A DNA stretch of 38,834 nucleotides, taken from assembly GCA_023128595.1 (NCBI GenBank), contig JAGMDR010000158.1, forward strand, positions 1-38,834, given 5' to 3'. Under the pieces are notes generated by a model. It searched no databases and was not told the origin of the DNA. It was given only the letters and a program-made list of their open reading frames with translations. Origin of the DNA: Planctomycetota bacterium (GTDB taxonomy: Bacteria > Planctomycetota > Phycisphaerae > Sedimentisphaerales > Anaerobacaceae). Below, one piece after another: positions 5,249-31,734 of the stretch. The translations under genes were made by a program, and so were the position numbers. How positions within the stretch are numbered: the stretch's first letter is position 1; every line of letters starts with the position of its first letter.

Positions 5249-5256
5249 TTTGCCCG

Positions 5257-5262
5257 CCTTTC
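5257..5262 (-). promoter_or_regulatory. Ribosome binding site that decides the fliD start
   Basis: On the minus strand GAAAGG lies 8 nt upstream of the ATG at 5246-5248. This favours the ATG over the in-frame TTG 27 nt further upstream and yields the canonical FliD N-terminus. Confidence 0.7.
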
Positions 5263-5305
5263 TCTCAAACCTCAAGATTCAAGTCTAATAGACCACTACG
5301 TTTTA

Positions 5306-5332
5306 TTATCGGTTAAGGACTCTTTTACTTAA
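5306..5332 (-). promoter_or_regulatory. Candidate sigma-28 (FliA) promoter upstream of fliD
   Basis: The minus strand reads TTAAGTAA, 11 nt, then ACCGATAA. The enterobacterial sigma-28 consensus is TAAAGTTT, 11 nt, GCCGATAA, so the -10 element matches at 7 of 8 positions, the -35 element at 5 of 8, and the spacing is exact. The -10 ends about 57 nt before the fliD ATG. fliD is a usual late, FliA-dependent gene, which fits. Matches and spacing are seen directly; use of this promoter is inferred. Confidence 0.65.
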
Positions 5333-5406
5333 CTACTTAGCATATATTCGCTTACAACATTTACACCGTTCAACAGTCAACTTGCGCTGCCGGCCCTTTT
5401 CAGGTC

Positions 5407-12579: not shown

Positions 12580-12603
12580 TTCGTATTTAACAGCTTACTG
12601 CAC

Positions 12604-15600: not shown

Positions 15601-17223
15601 GTACTCGATGAAGGGCATTGCGTTCAAGGCGATCATAACAAATGAAAACTTGTTCGGAGTTTTCTGCGCCAAGTTCTGAAGGCCATTCAAGCCGTCATTA
15701 ATCCTTCTGAGATTCTCCTGGTGCAAGACAACCTTTATTTGCGTAATCTGAGATCGAGGCATAGTGGGAACTGTGAATTCAGCGCCGCACTTGTTCAAGA
15801 ATTCCCAAACAGCATGTCCCTTTTGCGCCGCCGTTCCTGCATCTATTCGCGAACCATCAAGGACAATCCCTGCGTCGTCAATGAGAATAACGCCTCCGGT
15901 CAACATCATCGGGATCAACAGTTTGAATTCCTCAAAAATCACATCCTTGTCGTTCACGGAGTCGAGAAAAGCCATGTGAAATCGGCGGTTCTTCATACTT
16001 TTGAGGTGAGTAACAGAATCCGACAGTATCCACTCGACGTTCGAGGCATTTCGGCACACCTGCTTGCTGACCATTATCGAATAGGGGCTTATGTCAATTG
16101 TAATAATGCGGCCCGCTTCGCCCAACACTTCTGATATATATCGGGTGCTCTGGCCGGATTCATGGTAGAAGCGGATTGTCCCCGTTTCAATAACCTCGAT
16201 GTGGTCGCTGGGAAACTTCTGTTTTACTTCATTTGCGGCATCGATAACATTCTGCATGTCAACGGGCTTTTGATACAATCGGCCGTAGAGGTCATAGTTT
16301 CGCACATAATCCATCATCACTTCCGGGTGTATGCCGTCGAACAATTCCGTATGCGAATTCTTATCCTCAATCCAGACCGGATAGTAGCTTTCGACTTCCT
16401 CCCTGTTCGCGTGCATCCATTTTCTGAAGCACTCGTTGCGCCACTGAATCAGATCAATTCCACGTTCACGATTCAATCCAAGCCTCAGGCACTTCTCAAT
16501 CCACAAGTCGAGCTGAGCATGAGAAACAAAAGTGTAGTTGAAAATCACAACTCCATTGCGTCTCATTTCGCAGGCATCCAACCGATTCACCGGGATGGCG
16601 CCGGCCGATGAATTCGACTCGGGAATTCTCAGAGACGATTCTCGGTCAAAAGTCGCCCCTTTGAAATACTTGAACACTCGCGGACAGTGATTGCGCTTGC
16701 TGTGAAGATCATCGGACACAATGACATAATCGAGTACTTTCCAGAACATTTCAGCAATAAAATCAATTTGCGTGACGGAATCATCCGCAGCAAGAATCTG
16801 CCTCACTCTTGTCAGATCCTGTCTCCTGTAAACTTCGACAGGATCTATAAGCCAAACATAATCTCCAGTGACATATTTGAGGGCCTCGTTCTGCATTTCG
16901 CACTTTTCAGGCCATCGGCCCTGGACCAGCCTGATTTTCTCTTGCGGATCAGGGAAAGACTTTATGAATTCGACCGTCCCGTCGGTGCTGCTTCCGTCGG
17001 GATTGGCGGCGAACATACAATTCTCGACGGCGCCCTCGACAATGATTATCTCGTGAGCAAAGTCATAGACAGATTTAAGGCTGTATTCAATGAACGGCAT
17101 CCCGTTTAGCACAATCATAACAAATGAGAACTTTGGTTCCCGCTCTTGTGCACTTGGCGAGACTCTTGGGCTAATGCTCGAGTCTAATCCGTTACCATCA
17201 ATGGATACGTTTTCGTTGTTCAA
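12604..17223 (-). CDS. Mega-enzyme: GT2 + methyltransferase + GT2 + GT4 + TPR + GT2 (1539 aa)
   Basis: Five catalytic-type modules are visible. GT2 copy A (31-310) and GT2 copy B (525-805) are close duplicates, both carrying FIEYSLKSVYDFAHEIIIVE. Copy B has LIDSDEVY (619-626); copy A has LIDPVEVY (125-132), so the DxD-type motif is lost there. Between them, 335-500 looks like a class I SAM methyltransferase of the Methyltransf_24 type (ETGT near 346-349). Residues 830-1180 are a GT4 GT-B domain with FGSGGNIHKGLGLLVEAF and CAEGSPGGVVECM. A TPR stretch (about 1205-1285) precedes a final GT2 (1298-1530, DADD at 1390-1393). The start is TTG at 17221-17223 with AAAGGA 6 nt upstream; the next in-frame ATG falls inside the GT2 core. 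Confidence 0.86.
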   Translation of the reverse strand: MNNENVSIDGNGLDSSISPRVSPSAQEREPKFSFVMIVLNGMPFIEYSLKSVYDFAHEIIIVEGAVENCMFAANPDGSSTDGTVEFIKSFPDPQEKIRLVQGRWPEKCEMQNEALKYVTGDYVWLIDPVEVYRRQDLTRVRQILAADDSVTQIDFIAEMFWKVLDYVIVSDDLHSKRNHCPRVFKYFKGATFDRESSLRIPESNSSAGAIPVNRLDACEMRRNGVVIFNYTFVSHAQLDLWIEKCLRLGLNRERGIDLIQWRNECFRKWMHANREEVESYYPVWIEDKNSHTELFDGIHPEVMMDYVRNYDLYGRLYQKPVDMQNVIDAANEVKQKFPSDHIEVIETGTIRFYHESGQSTRYISEVLGEAGRIITIDISPYSIMVSKQVCRNASNVEWILSDSVTHLKSMKNRRFHMAFLDSVNDKDVIFEEFKLLIPMMLTGGVILIDDAGIVLDGSRIDAGTAAQKGHAVWEFLNKCGAEFTVPTMPRSQITQIKVVLHQENLRRINDGLNGLQNLAQKTPNKFSFVMIALNAMPFIEYSLKSVYDFAHEIIIVEGAVENCLFAANPDGGSKDGTVEFIKSFPDPENKITLIQGRWPEKCEMQNEALKHVSGDYVWLIDSDEVYKRNDLDRIKGIVKSDPSITQVNFIPNSFWKGPDHIVYSSKFFEFSNHFRRLFKFVPGAVFISHRPPTMVWPGCNRTTEQMHLWGGTATREMGVILYHYNYVLDSQVKQKNDYYGRMDKKGDFWGFDRQAWYKECFLKWNPQNRERIERTYPVWLGDEHSHTQPFTGTHPDVMSNFIAGFGRKVSAGPGTNRPCQPVLKAAKKNALVSYITAPLRMGPQYQPFMFSNAGIARSMVKVLVEMGYVVDLIDWNCMDFESDKTYDLFIGHAGANWEYLSRNVVRDAIKIYFATGIYWRQFNRQEAERFDRLEERRGVRLPYDRRIEFSEEFAVHDADGIICLGNKNAAASYRQSPVCFNLNNACYGDDHYDAAAKDFDAGRRHFLYFGSGGNIHKGLGLLVEAFMQLDAELWCAGPVEPGFAEVYKEALPKHSNIHFVSWVELRSPRFYELMTLCNSTIFVSCAEGSPGGVVECMNQGLIPIVNREANIDVDDFGIMLQDDSIDQIVRVVREVMAKPAQWHYEHSIKTRQAALRDYSQQTFEENMRRGIEHVISKSQQVRAEQDRVAWQVTVNFDSYTDRWRSDLGALLRGADRLKSLQRNDEAAQLWQRVLVVEPSCMTAMCELAAYYADKGQSDKARGIAKRVMKLCPLDEQCRAVLQQTESTSSCYVVSNSLRTSVAILCARHHVRYLDNALSKIARGTEVPDEVVIVVSPVEGQEQLDRLNRLYEKFKDIFALEIKWCEQRLDAASARERLTESLNGDVILYHDADDTQHPQRLEIVKSFFKEHDIVHLCHSYTTFSEGEAGEIVYDNIQTAPSQELYEKYFVQGPMPKAFGAGFMRTHAGALCIRREVLQKVAWAGLVQGVEDREFCLNVLKTFNKSILIDAPLLNYNTSDERKMDIETNDIRVAPELQPLA

Positions 17224-17229
17224 CTCAAT

Positions 17230-17235
17230 TCCTTT
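17230..17235 (-). promoter_or_regulatory. Ribosome binding site supporting a TTG start
   Basis: On the minus strand AAAGGA lies 6 nt upstream of TTG 17221-17223. The next in-frame ATG is inside the conserved GT2 strand (residue 36), so the TTG is the most likely start of the 1539-residue gene. Confidence 0.6.
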
Positions 17236-17277
17236 TCCAATTCGTCCAAAGAAATCGCATTTCCTTCTGCAATACTG

Positions 17278-20200
17278 TCAGCCTATCAGACTCTGCCGGT
17301 ATTCATTAGCGGCTTGATCTATTCGCTCAAGCAGGCCAGCGGCGCCGCGATTGTCCGGCTGCAGCGAAAGTTCCACCTGGCAGGCTCGTTTTGCCGAGAA
17401 TATATCCCCCAACTGAGCATAAGCGGCAGCCAACGCATAATACAGATTAGGCAGTGTCGTACAATTCATCGCCGCCCTTTCGAGATGTTTTACGGCCTCT
17501 GAACCATTGCCGTCATTTAGATATTGAAAACCCTTCCTGAAGAATTCCTCGGCTGCCGACCTGTTTTCCGTCTCCAGAGAATTCAATAACAACTTCGCAA
17601 CGTTCTTTGCCGAACCTAATATCAATTCCCTCCTGGCAACAGGCAGCAACCTTGACAGACAATCAGGGTCCACCTGCAATCTCAGAGCCTCGAACTGCTC
17701 TTTCACAATATCCGGCGCCTGCTGATAGGCACTTTCAATACATTTAAGAGCCGCTGAGAAGTTATTCTCTTTAAGAAATTCGCTTATGGGTCTAAGTGCA
17801 ATACCGTTCGGCGTTAACTCCCAGGCGGCATGAGATGTATATGCAAGAGAGGTATCGTTGCCGGTCAAGTCCAAATTTCGTTGTAATTCAATATTAAAAC
17901 TTGCCCCTTCTTTGCCCCCCGATATATGCGAATGGCCGTGGTTCTGATGGATGATTGTCACCTTGTTGCTCGCATCGACGACCGGCTGACCGGCCAACAA
18001 GGGCTCTCGAACGAGCCAGTTGTCCCACATACCTCGCCCCAACGCCAGTGGAGGAATCGCAGGCCACAAGCCTTTTTTGAAAGCAAAATAGTCGATACCC
18101 GTCGGAGCATGATAAATACCTTCCCGCCTGACCCGCTCAATTAACCTCTGCTCCCAGTCCTCGGCGTAGAAGTCAATCTCTTCCGACATATCAAGATCCC
18201 ACCGCCGACCGACCATCAAGAACTGACCAAACCGCCGGGCGACACTTTCAAGCGCTTCGGCAAAATCATCCATAAGGATTATGTCGGAATTGACATATAC
18301 ACAGATTTCATTTGACGCCGCGGCCTGCGCCTTTAGAAATAAGTCGTCAAGTAAGGGCGTCCCGAACTCATTGCGCTGTACGCTTGGAATATGTTTGAAA
18401 CCATATCTGAGGGCGAAGTCAGCCACCCCATCGTCATCTCCCAGGAGAATAATCTCAGGGCGAGGTCTCAACTGCATCCAGCTTCCTACCGCATTTCTTT
18501 GAATAGCAGCAAAAGCACCCGTAAAGCACTTGGGCATTGCAAAAATGGTCAAACCTTTAAGCTGTCGTTGCTGAGCCTGTTTTGAAATATGCCCTTGTTC
18601 TTTGGCTATGTACTTCTTGATATCTTTATACAGAATTTGCGCATTAGGATGAGCACACTTGCCGTTGACCTCCGACTCCAGCGCTTTCACGGCTAAATCA
18701 AATCGCCCAAGCCTTACAAGGCATATACCTATCGCACATAATGCTCCACTGATGTTCGATGTAAGACCAATCGCTCGATTGAAACAGTCCAAGGCTTCCT
18801 GCACACGGCCCACCGCAAAGAATTCAATCCCACGCCGACACAGAGCTGCTGCCTCTTGACCGGCTGAAACATCTTTCTCTTCGTAAACACTGATTTGGTC
18901 CACCGGATTGTGATGTAAGTTTCCCGTAAGTCTATTGAATGCCTCTAAACTGAAATCCGTACCGGCTGCGTTTCCAGGACTCGCCGGGCACTCAAACATC
19001 ACCACCTTATTGCCAGGCTCGAAAATCAGGTCGATCTTATTGCGATTCACCCACTCCATCAGTGGGGCTACTTCAGGAAAACCTATAAAAAAGCCCCCTT
19101 TCCAGTAAGGCGCGTAATAACCATCGAAGCATCCAAGAGAATCGACCTCGTTGGCAGCAACTTCTTTAAGAAACTTTGAAACACTACCATCCGACACCGG
19201 CTCATTGCGATACCATAAGTCATCTACTGCTACTACACTACCTCGCGGCAATGCTGATAGGGCATTTTTCAGAATATGTGCCATAATGGGAGCGATTGGT
19301 GTATCATGCACATCAACATAAAGTATGACTCTGTCTTCTTTAGACCAGAGCCGGCTGAAGTCTGTTTTCAAGATATCCTGCTCGAGCAATTTTACCTTCG
19401 ACAATTCAAGAGGAACAACCGCACAGCTATCCAAAAGCGGCTTGAACGAAAGGTCAACGGCAATAATTTCCGCATCAATTTGCGCATTGTTTTTTGCCAA
19501 AAGCCATGCTCGCAGCGAAAGACCGGAGAGAGTTCCTAACTCGACAATTTTGTCGGGCTTATGGCAGTAAACAAGATTAACTAATGCGCTCAGCGATTTG
19601 ACGCTCTGGTCACGGTAATAAAGACGCTTTTGAGACGATGCAAGTTGTTCAATCCATTCTCCAACTTCGTTCACAGAGTCAATTTCGTTACTCGTGCAGA
19701 ATGTTTCTAATGTCGGAGACAGTTTACGTGGGGCTATATCAACGCACCTGCGTATGTCGGCCGGCTCAGAGTTTCTCCGGGGCGATGTTTTGATATTCGC
19801 CGTCCCAAAAGTTGGTTTTACGACAGGCGCCACCTTTGGCATATAGAAATACCTATCTTCGTGGCCGACCATTGTATGCTTGTACCCCAATGACGCGAGC
19901 AACTTTGTTATTTCCTCCGGGCGGTATCCGAACTGTTTGGTATTTGGTTCCCAATATTCAAGAAGAATGTTGGGATGGCACCTTCTTATCAACTCTTGAG
20001 CGCCTTTCAAGACCAGAAGCTCACACCCTTCGGTGTCAATCTTGACCAGATCCACTCTATCTAACCCATAGTCTTTGAGAAAATCATCAACCGTGCTAAC
20101 GGGAACTTCACATTCCACCCAGTTTTCAAATCTCAGAGGGCTCCCTATACAAGCTAAGCCGTCATTCTTTCCGGAGCTGGGAACCTTCAACACCGCCGTG

Positions 20201-20547
20201 CCCTTTTTGTCGGCCAAAGCAAGCTGGAATGTCTTGACTCTGCCCTCAAGATTGTTGAGAGCTATGTTTCTTTGCAGAATGTCATAGTTTGATGGAGCTG
20301 GTTCGAAGGCAAAGCAGCGTATATGTTGATTTATCGCGGCAATCAGGGAAAAAACACCATCGTTGGCCCCAATATCCAAAACCACCGGATTTTCATACCC
20401 TAACGTTAGTTTGTAGAAGAACCTCTCAAGGTCACTGGTAAGTTTGGCCGGTATCCCATCGCGATAACGACCGTGCCAGCAATGACCCGGGCCAGTGGCT
20501 CTTTCGTCAATTTCTAATTTGAAATCATCAAACAGATACGCCTGCAT
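17278..20547 (-). CDS. FkbM methyltransferase + second methyltransferase + TPR + GT-A-like fusion (1089 aa)
   Basis: Residues 50-205 are an FkbM-type SAM methyltransferase: VVLDIGANDGVFSL (55-68), FEPAPSNYDIL and the signature VKIDTEGCELLVLKGA (168-183). Residues 325-490 look like a second class I methyltransferase, with IVELGTLSGLSLRAW (334-348) and VVAVDDLWY (438-446). TPR-like repeats span 564-640. Residues 664-905 are a GT-A-like domain with VNSDIILMDD (752-761), similar to the second module of the 1454-residue protein. TPR repeats end the protein (about 995-1070). FkbM enzymes O-methylate sugars and other metabolites, so this product probably methylates glycan residues. The ATG lies inside the end of the dehydrogenase gene (20-nt overlap), with GAAGG 9 nt upstream. 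Confidence 0.86.
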   Translation of the reverse strand: MQAYLFDDFKLEIDERATGPGHCWHGRYRDGIPAKLTSDLERFFYKLTLGYENPVVLDIGANDGVFSLIAAINQHIRCFAFEPAPSNYDILQRNIALNNLEGRVKTFQLALADKKGTAVLKVPSSGKNDGLACIGSPLRFENWVECEVPVSTVDDFLKDYGLDRVDLVKIDTEGCELLVLKGAQELIRRCHPNILLEYWEPNTKQFGYRPEEITKLLASLGYKHTMVGHEDRYFYMPKVAPVVKPTFGTANIKTSPRRNSEPADIRRCVDIAPRKLSPTLETFCTSNEIDSVNEVGEWIEQLASSQKRLYYRDQSVKSLSALVNLVYCHKPDKIVELGTLSGLSLRAWLLAKNNAQIDAEIIAVDLSFKPLLDSCAVVPLELSKVKLLEQDILKTDFSRLWSKEDRVILYVDVHDTPIAPIMAHILKNALSALPRGSVVAVDDLWYRNEPVSDGSVSKFLKEVAANEVDSLGCFDGYYAPYWKGGFFIGFPEVAPLMEWVNRNKIDLIFEPGNKVVMFECPASPGNAAGTDFSLEAFNRLTGNLHHNPVDQISVYEEKDVSAGQEAAALCRRGIEFFAVGRVQEALDCFNRAIGLTSNISGALCAIGICLVRLGRFDLAVKALESEVNGKCAHPNAQILYKDIKKYIAKEQGHISKQAQQRQLKGLTIFAMPKCFTGAFAAIQRNAVGSWMQLRPRPEIILLGDDDGVADFALRYGFKHIPSVQRNEFGTPLLDDLFLKAQAAASNEICVYVNSDIILMDDFAEALESVARRFGQFLMVGRRWDLDMSEEIDFYAEDWEQRLIERVRREGIYHAPTGIDYFAFKKGLWPAIPPLALGRGMWDNWLVREPLLAGQPVVDASNKVTIIHQNHGHSHISGGKEGASFNIELQRNLDLTGNDTSLAYTSHAAWELTPNGIALRPISEFLKENNFSAALKCIESAYQQAPDIVKEQFEALRLQVDPDCLSRLLPVARRELILGSAKNVAKLLLNSLETENRSAAEEFFRKGFQYLNDGNGSEAVKHLERAAMNCTTLPNLYYALAAAYAQLGDIFSAKRACQVELSLQPDNRGAAGLLERIDQAANEYRQSLIG

Positions 20548-21883
20548 ACCCTTTAACCTTCAGTCCTTTGCCCATCGGCACGTATTCGGCCTTTTGACCG
20601 AGCCGAGCCGGGGCCAATATCCGCCAGCAATCGATAATCTTAACCGGACCGCCGCTGATATAGCTTTCATCGATTTGCTTGAACTCATCCGCCGGCGTTG
20701 TAATCACGCAGACCGACGAGCTTGAGATACAGTCTTTTGCCGAATCGGCATATCGGATTCTCTCGCCAAAGACCTCTCTGGTGCTGTCCATCGCAAACCG
20801 GTCATAAACCGTAATGTCCACACCGTTTTTCAACAGCTCGTCAATGAGCCTTATCGCCGGTGACTCCACTATCACCGGCGTCTCAGGCTTAAATGCCAGC
20901 CCCAGAATCGAGACCGTCTTATCATTTGCCGATGAGATTTGATTGAGAACAAAGTCCGCCAGATGCCGGTTATGCTGTTGGTTCACCTCTGCCGAGGCCT
21001 CAATCAGCTCGGCATTGCAGCCGCACTGTCTGGCAAACCTCGCAAAAGCCGCCGTATCTCTTGGAAAACACGTTCCTCCATAGCTCAATCCGCCCCGAAA
21101 ATAGAAAGGCGAAATCCTTTTGTCCAAACCCAGCGTGCTTGTGATAACATCCACATCTGCACCGGCCGTCCCTTCACACATTTGCGAGACGGTGTTGGCA
21201 AATCCTATCTTCATGGTTATGTACGCATTGAGGCTGACCTTGATGATTTCCGCATTGATAATCGATGTTCGTACAATAGCCGGAGTATTCTCGCACATAC
21301 GCTGATAGACGGATGCAACCCGCTGCCCGGCCGAAGAGTCACTTTCTCCAATCAAAACAAAGTCAGGATTGGAGAAATCATGGATCACCCTGCCCAATGC
21401 AACAAAATCCGGATTATAGCACACCTGAAAATCATCATTGAGCCTCCTGCCGGAATGCTCTTCAAGCAAAAGAATGAATGTTACATCCGTCGAACCGGGT
21501 ATTACGGTACTGCTGACAACAAAAACATGATTTGACTTTCCACTTTCACCGAAAGCCCCTGCCAAAGATTTCAGGGCCGATTCCACGTACCTGTTCGAGA
21601 AGCTTCCGTCGGGCTCGCTTGGAGTTGACACCAAAACAAAAGTGACATCCGTCCTGTCAATGGCCTCCTTATGACTCCCCGTCGCCCGCAGCCTTGTGCC
21701 GCCTAATTTGGATATCAGCTTCTGCAGACCCGGCTCAACTATCGGCGAAACTCCGCTGTTGATCGAGTCAACAACCTCCTTGTTAATATCAACCCCTATT
21801 GTCTCGAAACCTCTTTCCGCAAAGCAGGTAGCCAGACACAAACCGAGCTTCCCAAGTCCAACAACAGATATGGAATCTCTCAT
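20528..21883 (-). CDS. UDP-glucose/GDP-mannose dehydrogenase family nucleotide-sugar dehydrogenase
   Basis: This enzyme family oxidises the C6 hydroxyl of a nucleotide sugar to a carboxylate with two NAD+, supplying uronic-acid donors. The 451-residue product has the N-terminal Rossmann motif VVGLGKLGLCLATCFAERG (residues 7-25), the central helical region, the catalytic cysteine in GGTCFPRD (Cys272) and the C-terminal nucleotide-sugar binding domain starting ILGLAFKPETP. The usual NPEF motif reads NPDF (157-160), a Glu-to-Asp change at a residue implicated in catalysis in the family. I start at ATG 21881-21883, which has GAGGT 8 nt upstream; a longer frame to 21925 would overlap the DUF362 gene. 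The substrate (UDP-Glc, UDP-GlcNAc or GDP-Man type) cannot be told from sequence alone. Confidence 0.92.
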   Translation of the reverse strand: MRDSISVVGLGKLGLCLATCFAERGFETIGVDINKEVVDSINSGVSPIVEPGLQKLISKLGGTRLRATGSHKEAIDRTDVTFVLVSTPSEPDGSFSNRYVESALKSLAGAFGESGKSNHVFVVSSTVIPGSTDVTFILLLEEHSGRRLNDDFQVCYNPDFVALGRVIHDFSNPDFVLIGESDSSAGQRVASVYQRMCENTPAIVRTSIINAEIIKVSLNAYITMKIGFANTVSQMCEGTAGADVDVITSTLGLDKRISPFYFRGGLSYGGTCFPRDTAAFARFARQCGCNAELIEASAEVNQQHNRHLADFVLNQISSANDKTVSILGLAFKPETPVIVESPAIRLIDELLKNGVDITVYDRFAMDSTREVFGERIRYADSAKDCISSSSVCVITTPADEFKQIDESYISGGPVKIIDCWRILAPARLGQKAEYVPMGKGLKVKGYAGVSV

Positions 21884-21900: not shown

Positions 21901-23436
21901 TCAAATCTCGATATGTCCCACCCAACCGGGATGGGGTTTGAAATCAAAGAACCGATCTTCACCGTCACTGACACAATTTTGCCATCCACCCTCATCACAG
22001 ATAACTTCAATGTCGCCGGGCTCGCGAATACCGTAGTCGCAATCCAAATCTTCCAGTACATTTCGATACAGCCGCAGCTTCAACGGATCAAATCCCATCA
22101 GCCTGGTTGCAACTAAATCAACAGCGACAATATTCTCCCCGGCCAGCAGCACGCCCGCCGGTTTGGGCTCGGGCGAAAGAGGCCCGTTGTTCTGCCCTCC
22201 TATAACACCATCGATAACCGAAAAGACCCTACGCTGTTTGTCCGTGTGCATACAGCCCTGCCCGTCGGCAAAATAGAACACCTTCAACAAGTCAAAGACC
22301 ATTCGCCACGCCGAATCATTGCCGTGCCAGTTGCCCGCATCAAGCATTCGCTTCTCCCGAGGCACGGTAATACCGAAAGGTTTAATGAAGAGGCCGTGCA
22401 GCCAATATGCCGAGCGGTGAATATATTCCAGCACTACGCTGCGTCGTGCCAGAAGGTTGTCATACATCCACCGTTCGAGCCTGATCAGGCCTCTTTCGAC
22501 AGGACTGAATAAACCCTCCGGATACTGGTCGCCACCCTCACCTGGTGAGCCTAATCTATAATGGAGACAAAAGTTCTTATTGGTGCAAATCCCCACCAGA
22601 CCCTTCAGATTCAATGTCACACCGACTTTCTTATGCACCTTCAGCTTGGGAACCGAAATCACCACATCCGCATCCAGCACCGTACGAGAAATCTCATACT
22701 CCTGGGTTTCTCCGCAATGATGGTTTATCAGCTCGCTGCGGTGATAGACCGTGCCGTAAAACCTCTCCGGATTTGGGCAGTTGTACAAAGCGCTCTGCCG
22801 CCCCAATCTAACTGTGGTGACGCCTTTGGGGTCACCCGGAAGCGGTATTTTGCATGATGGAAAATGCCTGGTCTTAGACCAATAGCTCCTCAAATCATAC
22901 AGATGAACCTTAGGTCCGGAGAAGTCCGAATAGAAATCGCACACGTGGTCTATCTTGGTAATTTCAACCAGTTGTTTGAAGTCACAATCGTACTGCGGCG
23001 CGTCGGCTACAACTATTTCTCCCCGCCCCTTCAGTGCTATCCAGGAGTAGTCCGCTATCGCCCTCAAAACGGAAGGATGAGTGATAATTGAGAATACGTC
23101 CTTACCCTCCGAGTGTTTGCCTAAGACGAAATTGGGCTTTATGACAACCGTCATGCCCGGCTCAATCAAGTACCCCAAAGGATTCCATTGTTCTGTGCCG
23201 TAATTCTCTGCATCCAGACCCAGCAAATGCAACAGCCGTCTCACGCTCGCATATATCTCGTTTTCACAGGAGCTGATGTGTCCTTTGAATGGGTATTCGG
23301 GATAAGCCGACGAAGGGTGATACGGAGCATCCCGCGGATAAACCGGCTTTGACATGTTTGCCACTGCGATCTTCGCTCTGCATTTTGATTCAGTCGCGAT
23401 CATATTATGTGCATTTGTGCCATGTCCACACTTCAT
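21901..23436 (-). CDS. DUF362 domain protein (511 aa)
   Basis: The family is recognised from TVVIKPNFVLG (about residues 95-105), the central VISVPKLKVHKKVGVTLNLK and the late NIVAVDLVATRLMGFDP stretch, in the usual order. Its biochemical function is not established, so none is assigned. The protein looks soluble and lacks the ferredoxin-type CxxCxxC clusters found in some DUF362 proteins. The ATG overlaps the stop of the CapK-like gene as ATGA (23433-23436), so the two are translationally coupled. In-frame ATGs at residues 12 and 28 are alternatives, the second just before the conserved region. Context suggests a role in processing or attaching an activated intermediate for the flagellar glycan; this is inference. 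Confidence 0.8.
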   Translation of the reverse strand: MKCGHGTNAHNMIATESKCRAKIAVANMSKPVYPRDAPYHPSSAYPEYPFKGHISSCENEIYASVRRLLHLLGLDAENYGTEQWNPLGYLIEPGMTVVIKPNFVLGKHSEGKDVFSIITHPSVLRAIADYSWIALKGRGEIVVADAPQYDCDFKQLVEITKIDHVCDFYSDFSGPKVHLYDLRSYWSKTRHFPSCKIPLPGDPKGVTTVRLGRQSALYNCPNPERFYGTVYHRSELINHHCGETQEYEISRTVLDADVVISVPKLKVHKKVGVTLNLKGLVGICTNKNFCLHYRLGSPGEGGDQYPEGLFSPVERGLIRLERWMYDNLLARRSVVLEYIHRSAYWLHGLFIKPFGITVPREKRMLDAGNWHGNDSAWRMVFDLLKVFYFADGQGCMHTDKQRRVFSVIDGVIGGQNNGPLSPEPKPAGVLLAGENIVAVDLVATRLMGFDPLKLRLYRNVLEDLDCDYGIREPGDIEVICDEGGWQNCVSDGEDRFFDFKPHPGWVGHIEI

Positions 23437-24821
23437 AATCTCAAGGCAAAACCTAAAGATAAATCGTTATATTCATTTTCCATTTCCTGGACCAGCAATC
23501 TATGTTTTCCACGTTTTGTAAGAGCAATTTCCCCTACACTTTCCATCGTCAGCTCCACATCAGCACCCATTTTCAACAACAAAGCTCTCTTCATATCTTC
23601 CACAACTTGACGGTTGCAAGTCTGCTTCGGAACGAATCTTAATACAACCTTGCCTTGTTCTTTCTGGTAAAACTGAAAATATTTAATATGGTCGTAAAAA
23701 TCGTCGTGCATATTGAGCATTGAAGTGGATACATAACGCCCTTTACCAGTTACGATGAGTTCTTGCAGTCTGCCTTCTATTCTTTCCCAAATCTGGTATG
23801 GGCGTCCGCAAGAAGAGCAGCCAAAGCCTTTCAGCACAGCAAGATCCTGAGTCTTGTAACGAACAAACGGTGTTGCCTTCATGATAAACGAAGTTCCCAC
23901 AATCTCACCAATGTGACCTGGTTCCACCACAGGTTTTCCATCTTCGCCTATGAGCTCAGCATAACCGTATTGGGGCAACACGTGATATGTATCTTCATAT
24001 TCACAGAATCCTGCCAGAACCGCCATCTCGTAGTGCCCATAGTGGCAAAACACCCGGGCATCAAAGATCTCGGAGAATAACTTCTTCTGAAAATCATAGA
24101 GGTGTTCAGACGCACAAAGAATACCTTTAATTTTTGGAAACGACCTGTTTGTCTCTTTCAGAAATCTCGCAAAAACATATCCCGACGAAGGATAACATCT
24201 TATCCACTCCGGCTCATAAGTAAGTGCTCGTTGCCGATAAATCTCCATCGACTCCGATGTAAAATGATAAGTGGAGCATCTAAGTTCGTTAAAATCCGGG
24301 ACAAGCTCCATACGATCTCCTGTTGCTATCTGCAAACCCCTCAGGACAAACTGTCTATCTCCTTCTTTCCAACCAACTCTATAGTACTGATGTGCTTTTG
24401 ACGCTAATTCCTTTGCAAAAGACTTTTGATCTCTATACATTCCACAGGGAACACCTGTACTTCCTCCGGTGGTGACATAATACCTGCCGTCAATGTTAGC
24501 AGAAAAATCTTCCAGGTTATCTCGAATCATTTGTTTTTCGATAAACGGGAGTTTTCTCAAATCATCTATCGTCTGTATAGTATCCGGGGATACGCCGAAC
24601 TTATCGTACAGAGCTTTATAGCCCCTGGTGTTTTCGTAGGCGAACTTGACTGCCTGCCTGACCTGCTCCAACTGATAGTCCTCAATGTGTTGCCTGTTCC
24701 AGCCGTCGGATTCCCTTAGAAACTCCACCCACCGGCAATAGTCTCTATTCCGCAGATCGACGTGCGCCGGGGCTTCATATTTCTCAGAAACCTTCACAAA
24801 AGACCCCTCGCTGTGATTCAT
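23433..24821 (-). CDS. CapK/PaaK-like adenylate-forming enzyme (462 aa)
   Basis: The product belongs to the phenylacetate-CoA ligase-like branch of adenylate-forming enzymes, often called CapK when found in polysaccharide clusters. It has the ATP-binding loop TTGGSTGVP (117-125), a YGHYEM motif (261-266) at the place of the family YGxxE motif, and YKTQDLAVL (322-330) near the hinge, followed by GCSSCGRPY with a Cys pair (335 and 338) that often binds zinc here. It may activate a carboxylic acid as an adenylate or thioester for transfer to a sugar or protein. The substrate is unknown. AGGAG lies 7 nt upstream of the ATG. Its DNA looks more AT-rich than the genes on both sides. The stop overlaps the DUF362 start by 4 nt. 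Confidence 0.82.
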   Translation of the reverse strand: MNHSEGSFVKVSEKYEAPAHVDLRNRDYCRWVEFLRESDGWNRQHIEDYQLEQVRQAVKFAYENTRGYKALYDKFGVSPDTIQTIDDLRKLPFIEKQMIRDNLEDFSANIDGRYYVTTGGSTGVPCGMYRDQKSFAKELASKAHQYYRVGWKEGDRQFVLRGLQIATGDRMELVPDFNELRCSTYHFTSESMEIYRQRALTYEPEWIRCYPSSGYVFARFLKETNRSFPKIKGILCASEHLYDFQKKLFSEIFDARVFCHYGHYEMAVLAGFCEYEDTYHVLPQYGYAELIGEDGKPVVEPGHIGEIVGTSFIMKATPFVRYKTQDLAVLKGFGCSSCGRPYQIWERIEGRLQELIVTGKGRYVSTSMLNMHDDFYDHIKYFQFYQKEQGKVVLRFVPKQTCNRQVVEDMKRALLLKMGADVELTMESVGEIALTKRGKHRLLVQEMENEYNDLSLGFALRL

Positions 24822-24872
24822 CTGTAAGCTCCTGTGCTAAACAGCTTCATACGTTACGCTGCTGTTCACGAC

Positions 24873-26237
24873 TCAAATAAATTTGTACGTCATACTGTCG
24901 TTCAGAACCACCTGCTCGTATATCTCATTGTGCGGCTGATACGTGCACCTCGGACATTCGCTTTGAACAAGGATGCTGTCGTGAATGTCCCAATGTTCTT
25001 TGCCACCCCACAACTTCTGAATTTCCTCGGCGCTTTCGATATTCCTGGCCAATTCCAGCTTCGCATCGCCGCGCCTGTCGCAGCAAAGCCCCACCGTAAA
25101 CGAATCTTTCGGCGCATCGGCGCCGATCGGCGGCTCGATAACCGCCGTCATAAAAATCGAATGACACCTGCAGAAATAATCCGCGCTGGCAAACTGGGAA
25201 TTGAATTTGTGAGTAACCCCATAAACGCCGAAGCCCTCATCGTCCAGCTCCAGCGCCTTGGCAATCTGGTCTTCAAACAGGAGTATATCCTCCCGGGAAA
25301 AGGAAATTTCATCCTCTGTGCCCAGCTTGTCCCAGGTGGTCCCCGCAGGCCGGAAATGAATACTCTTGCACCCTATCCGCTTGGCAAGCTTCGCCGCCTC
25401 GTACACTTCGCCGATATTATCTTCGTACAAAAGATACTTGAAACTAACCCCGTAAGCGGGATGCTTCCAGCCCAGCCTATTATTATGCATCCTGGCGTAG
25501 TCAACCAAAATGGCAACGTTCTCAATAACGCGGTCAAATACATCGCACCCGCCGCCCAGCCCCTTCAACTTGTTGTAAGTCTCTCTCGTAGCCGCATCCA
25601 CCGACACACCCACCCACACCGCCTGAGACAGCGAATCCACAAATCCACCTATCGCCGTGCCGTTGGTGACTACGCCCACGTCAACATCATTTGCCACGAC
25701 CCTGTCGATGAAGCTGCCGGTCGCTTTGTTCAACAGCGGCTCTCCGCCGCCGGCAATGCAAATGGCCTGGACGCCTAACTCCTGACAGCCCGTGCCTTGG
25801 CCCCAGCGAGGCAGGAAGTCCGCAATTTCAAGTAAGGCCTCTTCCGACAACGAGCCTCTTCGCTCTCTTCTTACAAACTCCGCATTGCACCAGATACAGT
25901 TCAAATTACATATATTCGTCGGGTCAACTGTGATCAGTATCGGCGGAGGAATTGGCTTGCCCCGTTTAATCTTTTTCCACCTTTCAACCTGCGCAAGGAG
26001 CTTATAGCTGTTGAACGGATTCCACCGTTTGCTCGGATTCCATTCCCTGTGAGCTTGTTTCGGTCTTTGCCGCGCCTCGGTCCGGACTCTGCCGCCGACG
26101 GAAATCGCATCGGCCGAGCTGCCGACCAAACCAACGCTATCATCATACTGATTACTTCCAGTCCTGCTTACTTGAGGCAAATACTTCACCCCCGGCCCTG
26201 CAACTTCCTGCACCGCTTTTTTTCTCACAACAAACAT
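24873..26237 (-). CDS. Radical SAM protein with C-terminal cysteine cluster (454 aa)
   Basis: The radical SAM core is clear: CNLNCIWC at residues 110-117 is the CxxxCxxC [4Fe-4S] motif, and GGGEPLL (163-169) is the SAM-binding glycine/glutamate motif. The core strand VTNGTAI (190-196) follows. C-terminal cysteines at 356, 358, 385, 386, 428 and 431 suggest a SPASM/Twitch-like auxiliary cluster. Such proteins do radical chemistry on peptides, sugars or cofactors; the reaction here cannot be read off. Residues 1-95 are a low-complexity, basic extension outside the core. AAGGA lies 8 nt upstream of the ATG. The gene lies between the small helical protein and the CapK-like gene in the same operon. 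Confidence 0.87.
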   Translation of the reverse strand: MFVVRKKAVQEVAGPGVKYLPQVSRTGSNQYDDSVGLVGSSADAISVGGRVRTEARQRPKQAHREWNPSKRWNPFNSYKLLAQVERWKKIKRGKPIPPPILITVDPTNICNLNCIWCNAEFVRRERRGSLSEEALLEIADFLPRWGQGTGCQELGVQAICIAGGGEPLLNKATGSFIDRVVANDVDVGVVTNGTAIGGFVDSLSQAVWVGVSVDAATRETYNKLKGLGGGCDVFDRVIENVAILVDYARMHNNRLGWKHPAYGVSFKYLLYEDNIGEVYEAAKLAKRIGCKSIHFRPAGTTWDKLGTEDEISFSREDILLFEDQIAKALELDDEGFGVYGVTHKFNSQFASADYFCRCHSIFMTAVIEPPIGADAPKDSFTVGLCCDRRGDAKLELARNIESAEEIQKLWGGKEHWDIHDSILVQSECPRCTYQPHNEIYEQVVLNDSMTYKFI

Positions 26238-26249
26238 CTAATTTTCCTT

Positions 26250-26576
26250 CTACCGGGCCTTTCTTGATATATTGCTGCGATAAGCCCCAATAGCTCTCCT
26301 GCCTCTACGAATCCTGCTTAACTCTCTGGATACCTCGTCCTTCTGGTCGCTGAGAGTCAGTCTCAGATCCCTGTACAATCCTGCCAAATGTTCACGTTGC
26401 TCTTCAAATCCAGCCTGTTCAAGAATCCCTGTCTGTCCTATTTCTTTCGCAATATCCCCTGCCTGCTCGCCCAGAGTTTCAACCTCGCCCAGCTTGCCCT
26501 GCCGAGCCAGCTCTATCTGCCCTTCCAACAGCCTTTGCAGCTCGCTCAACAGCCATATCTGCCTGTCTGTGCCCAT
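26250..26576 (-). CDS. Small helical protein, possible FliT/FlgN-like flagellar export chaperone (108 aa)
   Basis: The 108-residue product is almost wholly predicted helix, rich in Glu, Gln, Leu and Arg, and ends in a basic RRGRRAIGAYRSN stretch. Length, helical content and the late basic GRRAIGAY-like segment recall FliT/FlgN type chaperones, which bind FliD, FlgK or FlgL before export. No single diagnostic motif is seen, so this is a weak assignment resting on shape and context. A separate FlgN-like gene exists at 33779-34300, which would leave FliT (chaperone of FliD) for this one. It begins 5 nt after the TPR gene and ends 12 nt before the radical SAM gene. Confidence 0.5.
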   Translation of the reverse strand: MGTDRQIWLLSELQRLLEGQIELARQGKLGEVETLGEQAGDIAKEIGQTGILEQAGFEEQREHLAGLYRDLRLTLSDQKDEVSRELSRIRRGRRAIGAYRSNISRKAR

Positions 26577-26581
26577 ACGGC

Positions 26582-27211
26582 CTAACCCCCTGCCTGCCTC
26601 TGCCCGGCCAGACTATGTTCCACTTCTTCCAACAGATTAGCCGCATCACTGTTGCCCGGATCCAAAGCCAGGATGTCCCCAAGAAGTGTCCCGGCCTGCT
26701 CAAGATGGCCATCCTTAACATAGAGCGCTGCCAAAGAAAACATGACGGAAATATCACCCGGATGCATATCCAGATACACCTCAAGATAGTGAATGATTTT
26801 GCCGAATGAACCCATCTGGCAGGAAGTCTGAAACAGACCCAAAAGAGCTGTCAGATTATCCGTATCCAGCTCCAGGCATTTCAGATACATATCAAACGCC
26901 TGCTTGTAATCGCCCCTCTCCTGGGCGACCATCGCCTGGCCCGCGTAGCCCTTGGCGCAATTGACATCCAGCCGACAGGCAACCCGAAAGGCTATCTCCG
27001 CATCCTCAAGAAGCTCCTTCTGCAGGGCCACTACTCCAAGCCCAACGTAAGGACCCGCCTCGTCGGGCCCCAGGGTAGCGGCTTTTTCGTAGCACTTCTG
27101 CGCCTGTTCGTAGCTGCCTACCGACGCGTAACAGTCGCCGAGCTCCTGCAGCACTTCGTAACGCTGGGTCGTATTCTCATGCTCAGCAATATCGCCTTTT
27201 GTCATGTCCAT
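26582..27211 (-). CDS. Tetratricopeptide repeat protein (209 aa)
   Basis: The product is made almost wholly of about five TPR units, for example LGDCYASVGSYEQAQKCYEK and the matching stretches around residues 55-90, 90-125 and 155-190. TPRs are protein-binding scaffolds. There is no catalytic domain, signal peptide or membrane segment. It may present acceptor proteins to the glycosyltransferases or hold them together, an inference from context. Two in-frame ATGs open the gene, at 27211 and 27205. The second makes an ATGA overlap with the stop of the upstream GT2 gene, so either is plausible. Confidence 0.82.
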   Translation of the reverse strand: MDMTKGDIAEHENTTQRYEVLQELGDCYASVGSYEQAQKCYEKAATLGPDEAGPYVGLGVVALQKELLEDAEIAFRVACRLDVNCAKGYAGQAMVAQERGDYKQAFDMYLKCLELDTDNLTALLGLFQTSCQMGSFGKIIHYLEVYLDMHPGDISVMFSLAALYVKDGHLEQAGTLLGDILALDPGNSDAANLLEEVEHSLAGQRQAGG

Positions 27212-28803
27212 ACTAATTCTCTTCCTTCAAGTATTTGTTCTGCCTCTTCGAGACGCACTATTGCCAAGTTGAAATCTTTCTTCTCTTTGTGCAGTTTCGC
27301 CTCTAACAAAAGCGTATCCACGGTCGGTCTTTTTTCATTGACCTGACGCGCCAGGCCCACAGCCTTGCCAAGCTCGCCGGCCCTGAAAAACGCCTCCGCG
27401 GCCTGGTATTTCATCCACAGCTTGTTTCCATACCGCTCAACGAGGTGCTGGTATATTTGGGCCGCTCTTGACCAATTTCCATCCTTTTCCGCCAGTTGGG
27501 CCTGACAAAGCAATTGGTCAAACTGAAAGGGAATCTCGTCCGGCAAAACTCGTCTTATCGCAACGCCGTCCGCAATTAGCGACTCCCGAACCGACATACT
27601 CGCAAACCTCTCACGAGAATGCCGCAGGTCATCCGTTCTCAATATCACCGCCCAGAGCTTATCCGTCGAGTCTTCTAACTCAAATCCTTCGCCGTCAACC
27701 GGATTTTTAATAAGAGCACAGAGTGAATCTTCCAACCAGAATTCCCTGATTGGAAATCCGCTCGGCACTACTGCCGTGTATTCGCCCTCGCATTTCGCCA
27801 AAGCCGCAGTCGCACGCCCGGCCTCGGACGCCGAAGGATCCACTGATAAAGTGACTATGCTGGGCATGTCCGTATCCAATTTCCCCAAATCAGTCTGCGA
27901 GAGCGGCAAATACACTTCATACGGATAGAACGTATGACGCCAGATTGAAGCAAGGGTCCTCCCTGCCTGCTGGTCCAGTTGCTTCGTAACGAAAATAATC
28001 GAGACATCCTTAATCTTCGACCAGGGCTTGGCCGGTCTCGTGGTCCGTATCGCCATAACATTCCGCAGGTACTCGTTTTCGTCTTTGCGACGGCGGACCG
28101 ATACCCTGTCCGATTGGCCAACAGGACTGTAATATTCACCCGTAATTTCATGGACATGATAAAAGTCTGAGAAAAAGCACAGTTTCCGGGTCAGCTCCCA
28201 GTCAATCAGCACGTTGAGTTTCTCATTATGAGGCCCGATCTTCTCAAGCAAATCGCGGCGGTGCATCAGGCTCACGTGCAGGGCGTGATTGAAATACAGC
28301 ATAACAAATCGGTCGAAGTCCCTGCTGACTTCGACAACCTTGCTGAGAACCTCCCGCCTGCCGTCCGGCTCAGTCCGGCAATACGTCCTGTACAAATCGC
28401 TGTATGCAACCTGGCAGTCCGTTTCATTCTCCAGTGCGTTGACCAGCGTGCCGACGTGATGGCTGTAGTACAAATCGTCATCACCAAGGTAGCAGACATA
28501 TTTGCCATGGGCTCGGGCCAGCGCCTCGTTGAGCGTAAAGGGTATCCCGTGATTTTCCTTCCTGTTGATGAAAATGATTCTCGGATCGTTGAACGACCCG
28601 ATAACGTCACTCACTTCCTCTCCGCCGTCTCTGATTACAAATATTTCGAGATTATTGTAATCCTGACCCACCACACTGGCCAATGCCGTACGCAAATACA
28701 TCCGCCTGTTGTAGGTCGGTATAAGCACGCTGACAAGCGGCCCCGTCTTTGCACGAAAGTTCTCGAGTACCATAACTCTATCTAACAGCCCTAAGAGAGC
28801 CAC
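27202..28803 (-). CDS. GT2 glycosyltransferase with degenerate second GT domain and TPR tail (533 aa)
   Basis: Residues 22-240 are a GT2 domain beginning VSVLIPTYNRRMYLRTAL with GDDD at 107-110, the metal/nucleotide motif. Residues 265-400 look like a second GT-A fold starting VSIIFVTK, but the position where a DxD is expected reads VVPSGFP, so it is probably non-catalytic. Residues 430-530 are TPR-like repeats. The frame opens with GTG at 28803, only 3 nt after the upstream stop. An ATG at 28773 (residue 11) is an equally good start and leaves the GT2 domain intact. The stop overlaps the TPR gene. It probably adds one sugar; donor unknown. Confidence 0.85.
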   Translation of the reverse strand: MALLGLLDRVMVLENFRAKTGPLVSVLIPTYNRRMYLRTALASVVGQDYNNLEIFVIRDGGEEVSDVIGSFNDPRIIFINRKENHGIPFTLNEALARAHGKYVCYLGDDDLYYSHHVGTLVNALENETDCQVAYSDLYRTYCRTEPDGRREVLSKVVEVSRDFDRFVMLYFNHALHVSLMHRRDLLEKIGPHNEKLNVLIDWELTRKLCFFSDFYHVHEITGEYYSPVGQSDRVSVRRRKDENEYLRNVMAIRTTRPAKPWSKIKDVSIIFVTKQLDQQAGRTLASIWRHTFYPYEVYLPLSQTDLGKLDTDMPSIVTLSVDPSASEAGRATAALAKCEGEYTAVVPSGFPIREFWLEDSLCALIKNPVDGEGFELEDSTDKLWAVILRTDDLRHSRERFASMSVRESLIADGVAIRRVLPDEIPFQFDQLLCQAQLAEKDGNWSRAAQIYQHLVERYGNKLWMKYQAAEAFFRAGELGKAVGLARQVNEKRPTVDTLLLEAKLHKEKKDFNLAIVRLEEAEQILEGRELVWT

Positions 28804-28806
28804 ATA

Positions 28807-30291
28807 TCACGTAACACTGCGGCCCCCAAACACACCGACAGGCGATTGGACAGAGATTCCAATATCTCGGCCGACCTGCCGCAGTTCCGTATCCATCTGG
28901 GCCTCCAGCTCAGTGAAAACCTTGTTTATTCCGCTCAACTGCTTTTTCAGCGAATACTTCTCCTCGACAAATCTGCGATACCTTTGAGGCTCGTATGTAT
29001 CCGAAAGAATCTGCTCGCAGAATTCCTCGGCAATATCGAACAGGAATTCCGATGGGAAAATCTGCTCGGCGCCCAGAAAATTATGAACCACGGGCTTGAG
29101 CCCACAGGCCATCGACTCCAGAATCCCTACGGGGTGCCCTTCGCAGATGGACGTTGAGACTATGTAATGCTTGTCCCCGAGCCAGTAGTTCACATCTGCC
29201 TGCCACCCGTCAAAGAACACTACAGCAGCCAGGCCAAGGGCCCCAACCATATGCCTTAGATATTGTTCGAGAACCCGGTCCGTAAAGGCGCCGCCAAAGA
29301 ACAAGCGATACTCAGGGTCAACGTAGTGCAGCTTCTGCATACACTGCAGCACAAAGGCCGGGTTCTTTACCAGCCTCAGATTGCCCAAAAACGCAATGTT
29401 CTTGCCTCGCCGGCGGTCAACGAACGCAAATCTGCGAAGATTCACCCCATTTGGAACGGCCACGATCGAAGTTTGATTTCCTATATCGTGAACCTGGCTC
29501 TTGAGCGTCTCTAAAGTAATAGCGTTGCCAACCGTTACCAGAACGTCGATGTTGCTCCAATTAACCTGCCCGGGCCATTGCTCATAGGCCTCATAGCGGT
29601 GTAGCCTGATAATGTTCTTGCAAACCTTGGGCTTATTTGAGGCGGCTACTGCAAGATTGGTGCACCACTCAAACCACGATATATCACTCCACCGCATCAA
29701 CTCATATAGTTCTTCTTCCGTTTGCCCCTCAAAAACCCGCACCTCAAAACGCCGCTCCGTAAACTCGACGATTTCGTTGAGAAACGTCATTCCGTCGCCA
29801 CCACAAAAGAAGGCTATCTTCGGCCTCTTGGAACGAATCACCTCGACCATAGGTGTAAGAACATTCTGCTCCGGCGAGATTTGAAGCGAGCGAAGCAGCA
29901 TCTCAATCGCATTTGCCTTGTCGTTCTGGTTGAGAAAAACATCCGCAGCTCTGTTTAGTATGTCCGCACTCAATATTCCCAGCCGCTCCATATTGTCAAA
30001 AAGCTGCGCCGCTTCCTCTACTTCACCAACGGCAATATATGCCTCGGACAAATTCCAAAGTATCTCACCGCTGTCCGGCTTCAGACTCCCGGCTCTAATA
30101 AAATGATCAATAGCTTCACCCGAGCGACCCAGACAATGAAGTATTGCCCCTGCGTCGTTCAGGGCCTCCGCATCTTCAGGCACTGTCCGGAGATGTCCCT
30201 GGATATGCTCAAGAGCTTCCTGATGCCTGCCTGCTTCGGCCAATTCCAGACCCTTCCTGTAGCGGTCCGAATTATTAGTCTGGTTTGTCAT
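28807..30291 (-). CDS. TPR-GT4 glycosyltransferase, first gene of the glycosylation island (494 aa)
   Basis: Residues 8-145 are TPR repeats (for example LELAEAGRHQEALEHI and the next units). Residues 155-440 are a GT-B fold of the GT4 type: VPNGVNLRRF, IAFLGNLRLVKNPAFVLQCM for the donor domain, and CEGHPVGILESMACGLKPVV with the conserved EGxP...E pattern. Fusing a TPR protein-binding domain to a GT-B enzyme recalls FlmG of Caulobacter, a flagellin glycosyltransferase, so this could be the enzyme that attaches a sugar to the flagellar protein. That link is architectural only. AGGGAG lies 8 nt before the ATG. A 252-nt gap upstream holds candidate promoters. Confidence 0.86.
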   Translation of the reverse strand: MTNQTNNSDRYRKGLELAEAGRHQEALEHIQGHLRTVPEDAEALNDAGAILHCLGRSGEAIDHFIRAGSLKPDSGEILWNLSEAYIAVGEVEEAAQLFDNMERLGILSADILNRAADVFLNQNDKANAIEMLLRSLQISPEQNVLTPMVEVIRSKRPKIAFFCGGDGMTFLNEIVEFTERRFEVRVFEGQTEEELYELMRWSDISWFEWCTNLAVAASNKPKVCKNIIRLHRYEAYEQWPGQVNWSNIDVLVTVGNAITLETLKSQVHDIGNQTSIVAVPNGVNLRRFAFVDRRRGKNIAFLGNLRLVKNPAFVLQCMQKLHYVDPEYRLFFGGAFTDRVLEQYLRHMVGALGLAAVVFFDGWQADVNYWLGDKHYIVSTSICEGHPVGILESMACGLKPVVHNFLGAEQIFPSEFLFDIAEEFCEQILSDTYEPQRYRRFVEEKYSLKKQLSGINKVFTELEAQMDTELRQVGRDIGISVQSPVGVFGGRSVT

Positions 30292-30543: not shown

Positions 30544-31734
30544 CTATATGATAAAATCTAAAAGTGACATCGACATAAGTCTTCCGGCCACCGACAGCGA
30601 CATTTGATACAGAACCTCTCGACGGGAAATGTCGATGGCAATCTGGGCAATGTCGGCCTCCTGCAGCATCGTTGTCTCATCTTCGGTGCCAAATTTTATG
30701 TTCTCGACAGTACCTTTCATATCCTCAAGGAATCCTATTCTCGACCCCATCGAAACGGATTTTTCCGTCAGAAGACTTCTTATCTCTTCCAATGATCCAA
30801 TAGAATTATTTCGCAGCTCCTGAAGCTGAGCGTCGGAAAGCCCCCTCTGGTTTTTCAATATGTCCCGGATATTGATAAGCGTGTTAAAAGTATCATAGGT
30901 CCCCGGCACACGAACCATATCGACTCCCGTACTTATAGTTGTCGCATCAACATACAGCACATCTCCGTCGGAATTCTCAACCGCTATGTTGCTGACATCT
31001 CCAATGGTTGGCACCTCCACAGTATTATCACCGTCATCAATAGAGAGTTCATATTTTTCGCTGGTCTCGTTGTAAGTTACTGTCAACCACACGTCACCCG
31101 TTACACTTGATGTCCCCGTGCCCGCTTTGGCGCCGGTATCACCCAGAAAGACCGGTGTGCTTCGGCTGTCCGAGCGAAAAATCTGGTCTCCAACGTAAAA
31201 AGCCGATGACTGCACACCTGCAGCTACTTCGATCTCTCGATTCTCGAAACTGCCCTGGTAAGTCACACTCGTGATCTCTCCATTGGTGCGCGCCACCGCG
31301 TAGGGCGCCGAGCCGGTATCACCTCCTCCAAAAAGGTGTTCATTCAAATGCTTCGTATTGGCCAGCGAAACCACCTGCTCTAATGTGCTGTTGATCGCCT
31401 CAGCGATTCTCTCTCGCCCCTCCTGCCCGTAAACGCCGCTGACAATTTGAGTCAGGAGCACCTTTGTATCTGCGAACTGAGATATCATATCCTCGACAAC
31501 CACCATGGATATCTCCAGCGTGCTGACGGCCTGCGAGATATTATCCATATAGCCTTCCAGGAACCTCTCCTGGGAGTTCAGCCCCAGAACACGATAGGCG
31601 ATAGAAGGGTCATCGGATGCTCGATTGATTCGCGAGCCGGTGGATGCCTGCTCCTGCAGCCGCGACAGGGCCTCCGTATGAAGATGCAAAGCAAAGCCCA
31701 AATCGCTATAAATGCTGTTCAGTGGTCCACTCAT
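30544..31734 (-). CDS. flgL: Flagellar hook-filament junction protein FlgL
   Basis: FlgL forms the outer ring of the junction between hook and filament. The 396-residue product has the flagellin-like N-terminal helix region (LQEQASTGSRINRASDDPSIAYRV, residues about 27-50) and a matching C-terminal helix with EADIAQIAIDISRREVLYQ. The middle holds beta-rich sequence with the family motif LFGGGDTGSAPY. Length is somewhat above the common 300-320. The ATG has GAGAGG 5 nt upstream. It follows flgK by 27 nt and is the last structural gene before the glycosylation island. Confidence 0.94.
   Translation of the reverse strand: MSGPLNSIYSDLGFALHLHTEALSRLQEQASTGSRINRASDDPSIAYRVLGLNSQERFLEGYMDNISQAVSTLEISMVVVEDMISQFADTKVLLTQIVSGVYGQEGRERIAEAINSTLEQVVSLANTKHLNEHLFGGGDTGSAPYAVARTNGEITSVTYQGSFENREIEVAAGVQSSAFYVGDQIFRSDSRSTPVFLGDTGAKAGTGTSSVTGDVWLTVTYNETSEKYELSIDDGDNTVEVPTIGDVSNIAVENSDGDVLYVDATTISTGVDMVRVPGTYDTFNTLINIRDILKNQRGLSDAQLQELRNNSIGSLEEIRSLLTEKSVSMGSRIGFLEDMKGTVENIKFGTEDETTMLQEADIAQIAIDISRREVLYQMSLSVAGRLMSMSLLDFII

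Follow-up and report, generated by a model that had tools for sequence, protein, structure and literature searches.

What does a run of three genes for a radical SAM protein, a CapK-like ligase, and a DUF362 protein do inside a flagellar glycosylation island of a Planctomycetota bacterium, and do the three act together? The sequence-only reading of this locus had treated them as a coupled trio, in which an acid is made or altered by radical chemistry, activated as an adenylate or thioester, and then transferred or processed with DUF362. The window is the whole stretch of 38,834 nt that was analysed (contig JAGMDR010000158.1). All three open reading frames were found on the minus strand, stop-free and collinear (Table 1). 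The radical SAM gene had been placed 51 nt upstream of CapK; this gap was found at 24822-24872, and an AGGAG precedes the CapK ATG. The genes had also been placed inside an island, and they do lie in a glycosylation island, bounded by flgL and fliD; besides glycosyltransferases and a TPR protein it holds a protein resembling FliT, whose FliT profile score is below cut-off. Flagellar profiles matched in the window were Flagellin_N, FlgK, FlgI, FlgH, FliD, FlhB, and FliR-type. The ATGA overlap described for CapK and DUF362 stands if DUF362 begins at its first ATG and falls if the start is residue 12. Because the alignment with the nearest DUF362 homologue (L045) begins at window residue 12 and residues 1-8 of the DUF362 model have pLDDT < 50, the start may be the residue-12 ATG (base 23403), with no ATGA overlap. 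A gene for a nucleotide-sugar dehydrogenase (UGD), missing from the sequence-only reading, starts 17 nt past the DUF362 end and is part of the CapK-DUF362 unit.

Table 1. Coordinates of the features in the window.
Feature	Position	Strand	Remarks
flgL	30544-31734		bounds the glycosylation island
Upstream island genes: FliT-like, TPR, GT2 and GT1 glycosyltransferases	26250-30291	minus	profile matches
Radical SAM protein	24873-26237	minus	PF04055 51.8 bits (cut-off 29.5), CX3CX2C
CapK-like (PaaK-type ANL) ligase, 462 aa	23433-24821	minus	module core; PaaK-type NCBIfam matches below cut-off
DUF362 protein, 511 aa	21901-23436	minus	PF04015 91 bits (cut-off 24); module core
UGD, UDP-glucose-type nucleotide-sugar dehydrogenase	20528-21883	minus	TIGR03026 341.7 bits (cut-off 189.8)
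Downstream island genes: FkbM methyltransferase-TPR, multi-domain glycosyltransferases, last FliD	2888-20547	minus	profile matches
fliD	2888-5275		bounds the glycosylation island

Pairing of the genes was surveyed in 199 genomes sampled evenly across the phylum, using profile A3 for the DUF362 subfamily (E ≤ 1e-60) and profile A4 for CapK (genome counts at E ≤ 1e-40). The DUF362 subfamily was present in seven of the 199 genomes (G000, G086, G099, G110, G178, G190, and G234), and in all seven CapK lay directly upstream on the same strand with 48-117 nt between the matches, an adjacency far above chance. CapK was present in 34 of the 199 genomes, mostly without DUF362, and so has other uses; the converse, the DUF362 subfamily without CapK, was unseen in the sample. 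The neighbourhoods of CapK in eight of the 27 genomes that have it without DUF362 were ordinary-looking glycan clusters with no consistent DUF362 substitute (in one of the eight, L203, CapK was unresolved by gene calling).

A collection scan of public genomes with the DUF362 alignment as the query gave 470 relatives, and the loci were counted in the best 80 of these, which are redundant (duplicate contigs, several loci per genome; L045 and L213 are one contig of G416) and do not represent independent lineages. A single-protein query of the same genome contigs gave no match, and a plasmid search gave none. CapK was found at 72 of the best 80 of 470 loci, on the same strand at 71, within 1.5 kb at 66, and within 400 nt at 58, lying upstream at 40 and downstream at 31 of the same-strand loci; it was not seen at eight within the locus DNA examined. 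The CapK calls at L078, L096, and L123 come from partial or split frames, and the CapK of L124 is on the opposite strand. At one locus only of the best 80 of 470 (L093) were DUF362, a glycosyltransferase, and CapK found in one open frame. CapK occurred at none of 33 other DUF362 loci taken as a control (1.5-kb flanks). Mirror-tree comparison of CapK with DUF362 gave r = 0.75 over 70 loci, part of which is shared host ancestry, and none of 2,000 permutations was as high (highest 0.17). After L045, the closest DUF362 homologues in the best 80 of 470 (56-62% identity) were by record name from Chloroflexi, Kryptonia, Terriglobia, Verrucomicrobia, Acidobacteria, and Gemmatimonadetes, and since they are scattered over so many phyla, unit-wise transfer of CapK-DUF362 is likely. 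CapK-DUF362 is a genuine, probably mobile, two-enzyme module in surface-glycan clusters of many bacterial phyla.

A random 115 of 282 same-strand neighbours of the module were scanned. Glycosyltransferases were the most frequent, followed in the list by heparinase II/III (7), GFO/IDH/MocA (6), methyltransferases, UGD (3), and Asn synthase (3); the glycosyltransferase, heparinase, sugar-dehydrogenase, and Asn-synthase neighbours fit acidic surface polysaccharides, in keeping with the glycan setting first proposed for the pair. Single-ORF fusions were also seen, in which CapK was joined to a domain of asparagine synthase, methyltransferase, or GT1 type, or DUF362 to GT1 (L080:11530-14691, L100:5342-8824, L103:11415-13772, L111:11506-13701, L081:11447-14200, and L083:8630-11554).

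The window UGD resembles UDP-glucose 6-dehydrogenase of the TuaD/AglM type (TIGR03026 over cut-off; PDB 3vtf, E 2.9e-69) but may use another NDP-sugar. In the best 80 of 470 loci, UGD lay ≤ 400 nt downstream of DUF362 in 11, all closest to the window and from several phyla, and was not directly downstream in 69, which leaves a uronate substrate far from certain outside the window's clade. On the contig of L045 (G416) the gene order is that of the window, radical SAM-CapK-DUF362-UGD. Two further genomes, G032 and G415, have an island matching the window's in which the radical SAM gene is followed directly by a UGD 41% identical to that of the window, and CapK and DUF362 are absent from both over the island DNA examined. 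Common to these two islands are a GT2 gene, TPR, FliT-like, radical SAM (77-78%), and an FkbM protein, with GT1, FlgL, and FlgK additionally in G032; the upstream island genes (FliT-like, TPR, GT2, and GT1) also flank the radical SAM gene in L210, L211, and L213 over the DNA examined. In the window's clade, CapK-DUF362-UGD is a travelling three-gene cassette, and it looks as if this cassette replaced a resident UGD in a flagellar glycosylation island, a direction of exchange that we infer. Two genes downstream of UGD, G032 has a second, different radical SAM gene (L210:8047-9135; AhbD/NirJ-like, below cut-offs).

The CapK-like protein gave no Pfam match at E ≤ 0.01, AMP-binding included; its best solved relative is phenylacetate-CoA ligase (PDB 4r1l, E 4.5e-21). 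In an alignment of 73 sequences, K439 is conserved in 70 and D326 in 71, and Tyr261-Gly262, Glu265, and Arg321-Tyr322 are conserved. In ANL terms K439 is the adenylation Lys, and D326 and Arg321-Tyr322 are catalytic. By these residues CapK is predicted to be an ANL-competent ligase, and it retains what the adenylate formation previously ascribed to it requires; CoA or another thiol would be a putative acceptor. It thus shares the ANL catalytic Lys, Asp, and Arg-Tyr with PaaK/CapK-like enzymes but stands in glycan clusters rather than catabolic ones and falls below the PaaK cut-off (TIGR02155, 81.8 bits against 646.3). A Cys pair, C335/C338, is conserved in 65 of 73 sequences and is possibly a metal site.

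For DUF362, alignment A3 had 79 rows after L059, L075, and L091 were dropped as near-duplicates and L043 was added. Structure prediction, a check proposed along with the trio, gave a model with pLDDT 94.8 from the 79 sequences (an earlier model from four sequences, pLDDT 40.7, was not used). The top twelve structural matches were LarA-type (Z 15.0-15.5, rmsd 3.2-3.6, 219-249 residues), among them 4nar, a T. maritima protein; the next unrelated match had Z 5.4 (VIA). Foldseek agrees on the LarA fold, with modest E-values. The DUF362 protein is accordingly modelled with the LarA lactate-racemase fold, and passages of PMC11770544 place DUF362 and DUF2088 (LarA) in the same Pfam clan, CL0471. The protein differs from LarA in having no match to the Lar_N profile (PF09861), DUF362 being its sole Pfam match at E ≤ 0.01. 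Compared by sequence with solved structures, the DUF362 profile found none, the two matches up to E 10 looking like chance. NF052623 (Npun_F2552 family) was the only NCBIfam model matched, by all 79 A3 members; the window protein does not belong to that family, scoring 52.5 bits where the cut-off is 500. Residues invariant in 79 of 79 sequences include P101, N102, R183, K264, K266, H268, K270, K278, H292, D303, W370, N373, W377, R378, and D409, a list that is not exhaustive. No cysteine is invariant among the 79 sequences, which makes an iron-sulfur centre in DUF362 unlikely.

The account favoured here, tentatively and at a little under an even chance, is that CapK-DUF362 is a mobile glycan module which was swapped in as a UGD cassette beside an older radical SAM gene and which acts on a sugar acid. 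The pair probably activates and modifies this acid by chemistry new to the open literature searched. UGD would provide a nucleotide-activated uronic acid; CapK would adenylate a sugar-acid carboxylate, most simply that of the UGD-made uronate, and may hand the activated acid to a thiol. DUF362, whose fold relatives act on the carbon adjoining a carboxylate, would then epimerise or transfer the activated acid in a pocket formed by H268, K278, and H292 with the invariant R183/R378. C5 inversion, transfer, and amide formation would be alternative steps for DUF362, and the product would be a glycan carrying a modified acid residue. One detailed version, a long shot, has the nucleotide-uronate from UGD converted by CapK to an acyl adenylate or thioester in which the C5 hydrogen would be acidic, and an NPN-free DUF362 (NPN, nickel-pincer nucleotide) with the LarA fold inverting C5 by means of an invariant His and Lys. 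If C5 inversion were true, it would be the first activity for the DUF362 family and a new route to unusual sugar acids at the level of the activated monosaccharide.

In the open literature searched (titles, starts of abstracts, and passages, with most subscription papers outside), DUF362 has no assigned activity, the phrases "DUF362 family protein" and "DUF362 domain-containing protein" are absent, and DUF362 is not linked to exosortase or polysaccharide loci. The same parts of that literature, searched for the CapK-DUF362 module or for flagellin glycosylation with radical SAM, gave nothing on the module. Each enzyme family has been described before; what appears to be new is the strict CapK-DUF362 pairing, together with the cassette. 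DUF362 (PF04015) is widespread, and the strict cross-phylum partnership with CapK together with the predicted LarA fold makes its function testable in vitro with two proteins. CapK-DUF362 can also serve as a genomic marker for a class of surface and flagellin glycans that are modified and probably acidic.

The pair could instead turn a small acid, such as a hydroxy acid, into an acyl substituent, with DUF362 as an acyltransferase or racemase and UGD merely supplying uronic acid. This would suit the 69 of the best 80 of 470 loci without UGD directly downstream, the use of small 2-hydroxy acids by LarA enzymes (in passages of PMC11770544), and the predicted ANL competence of CapK. A directly downstream UGD is, however, kept in the 11 closest of the best 80 of 470 loci, across several phyla, and no dedicated acyltransferase recurs in the 25 commonest neighbour families (115 of 282 neighbours); a small-acid substrate is on balance rather unlikely.

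The trio itself, in which radical SAM makes or alters the acid, CapK activates it, and DUF362 transfers it, has the radical SAM gene as its first member. That gene encodes a member of the radical SAM superfamily (PF04055 over cut-off, CX3CX2C at residue 110), and it is consecutive with CapK and DUF362 on one strand in the window and in L045/G416. Nevertheless, a radical SAM homologue stands at just one module locus in the best 80 of 470, and CX3CX2C occurs near the module in just one other gene, at L117, 6 kb away. Among 161 genomes of the order, a direct search turned up radical SAM homologues in 5, and among 294 genomes of the phylum in 3. UGD follows the close homologues in six of six loci, directly or after CapK-DUF362. 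In G468 and G274 the radical SAM gene is followed directly by UGD, with no flagellar genes seen alongside, and in these two genomes, as in G032 and G415, no CapK or DUF362 adjoins it; in L045/G416 its frame is split in two. A distant homologue in G084 (35%), beside an ABC-2 exporter and with no UGD seen within 10.3 kb, was excluded from the six close loci. The radical SAM gene is a neighbour of CapK-DUF362 and not its partner, and its product would be a separate modifier linked to UGD. Making an acid by radical chemistry and then activating it would span two separable modules, because sister islands keep radical SAM without CapK and DUF362 and a single module locus in the best 80 of 470 has it. 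Of the proposed coupling, the CapK-DUF362 half survives on the seven-of-seven adjacency and the mirror-tree correlation, and the radical SAM half does not; the co-occurrence survey proposed as its check likewise found CapK-DUF362 above chance and radical SAM not. A three-step trio is therefore improbable.

Among described enzymes, the radical SAM protein has a weak match to BlsE, cytosylglucuronate decarboxylase (PDB E 0.36, NCBIfam E 3.6e-5), and its link to a uronate-forming UGD is a likeness of context, to be taken as a lead only; it scores far under the cut-off, however, at 23.4 of 400 bits. The split frame of L045/G416 consists of two overlapping frames (L045:7210-8555, on the L213 contig) and is due to assembly error or decay. 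In G274, the radical SAM homologue (67%) and UGD lie directly behind phosphonate genes (L128:5396-11720), namely PEP mutase and phosphonopyruvate decarboxylase, each above its cut-off, and a PsrA-like iron alcohol dehydrogenase below cut-off; a phosphonate-decorated glycan is possible there.

The modelled LarA fold could also mean that DUF362 resembles LarA in being a nickel-pincer-nucleotide enzyme, one that epimerises a sugar acid. A profile alignment of 13 LarA with 13 classical DUF362 proteins reached 2.6-3.3% probability, so the residue equivalences are weak; the motif region is plausible. In the low-scoring alignment (2.6%), H268 falls on the second catalytic His of LarA and K278 on the NPN-bearing Lys, and H292 is one residue off the Ni-ligand His. 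The His/Lys spacing of the classical DUF362 protein L001 is nearly the same as in the window subfamily. Passages of PMC11796402 put the share of genomes that make NPN but lack LarA at about 15%. Against this, the low-scoring alignment puts K100-P101-N102 of DUF362 where LarA has the Asp/Arg that hold NPN (Asp70 and Arg73 in the Isosphaera LarA enzyme, in passages of PMC12393405). LarC was not found in the module carriers of the window's family (G000, G009, G017, and G060, incomplete drafts) nor in several other module genomes; LarE was below cut-off in G000 and over it in G060 and G082. Two overlapping sets of module genomes (they share G000; G017 is G082) had LarC in 20 of 25 and in 23 of 34, versus 152 of 199 in the phylum. 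With LarC close to the base rate of the phylum in module genomes and not found in the family carriers, an NPN cofactor is unlikely. LarC occurred in 68 of 82 DUF362-positive versus 84 of 117 DUF362-negative genomes (Fisher p 0.09, genome lists cross-matched by hand), with two 99%-complete exceptions, G041 and G045. Given LarC, LarE, and Lar_N surveys without enrichment, the nickel-pincer reading was set aside as very improbable. Weaker still, mere co-location in variable glycan islands, where cassettes do shuffle, is scarcely credible for CapK-DUF362 against adjacency in seven of seven carriers in the 199-genome even sample, co-variation at r 0.75, and the single ORF of L093.

Lar_N proteins with the motif HEVVGFSGGHK were observed in G000, G060, and G082, in which LarC was not found (L143, at G000:C163:3147-3620, L141, and L142), and these may be LarA-type proteins that work without NPN.
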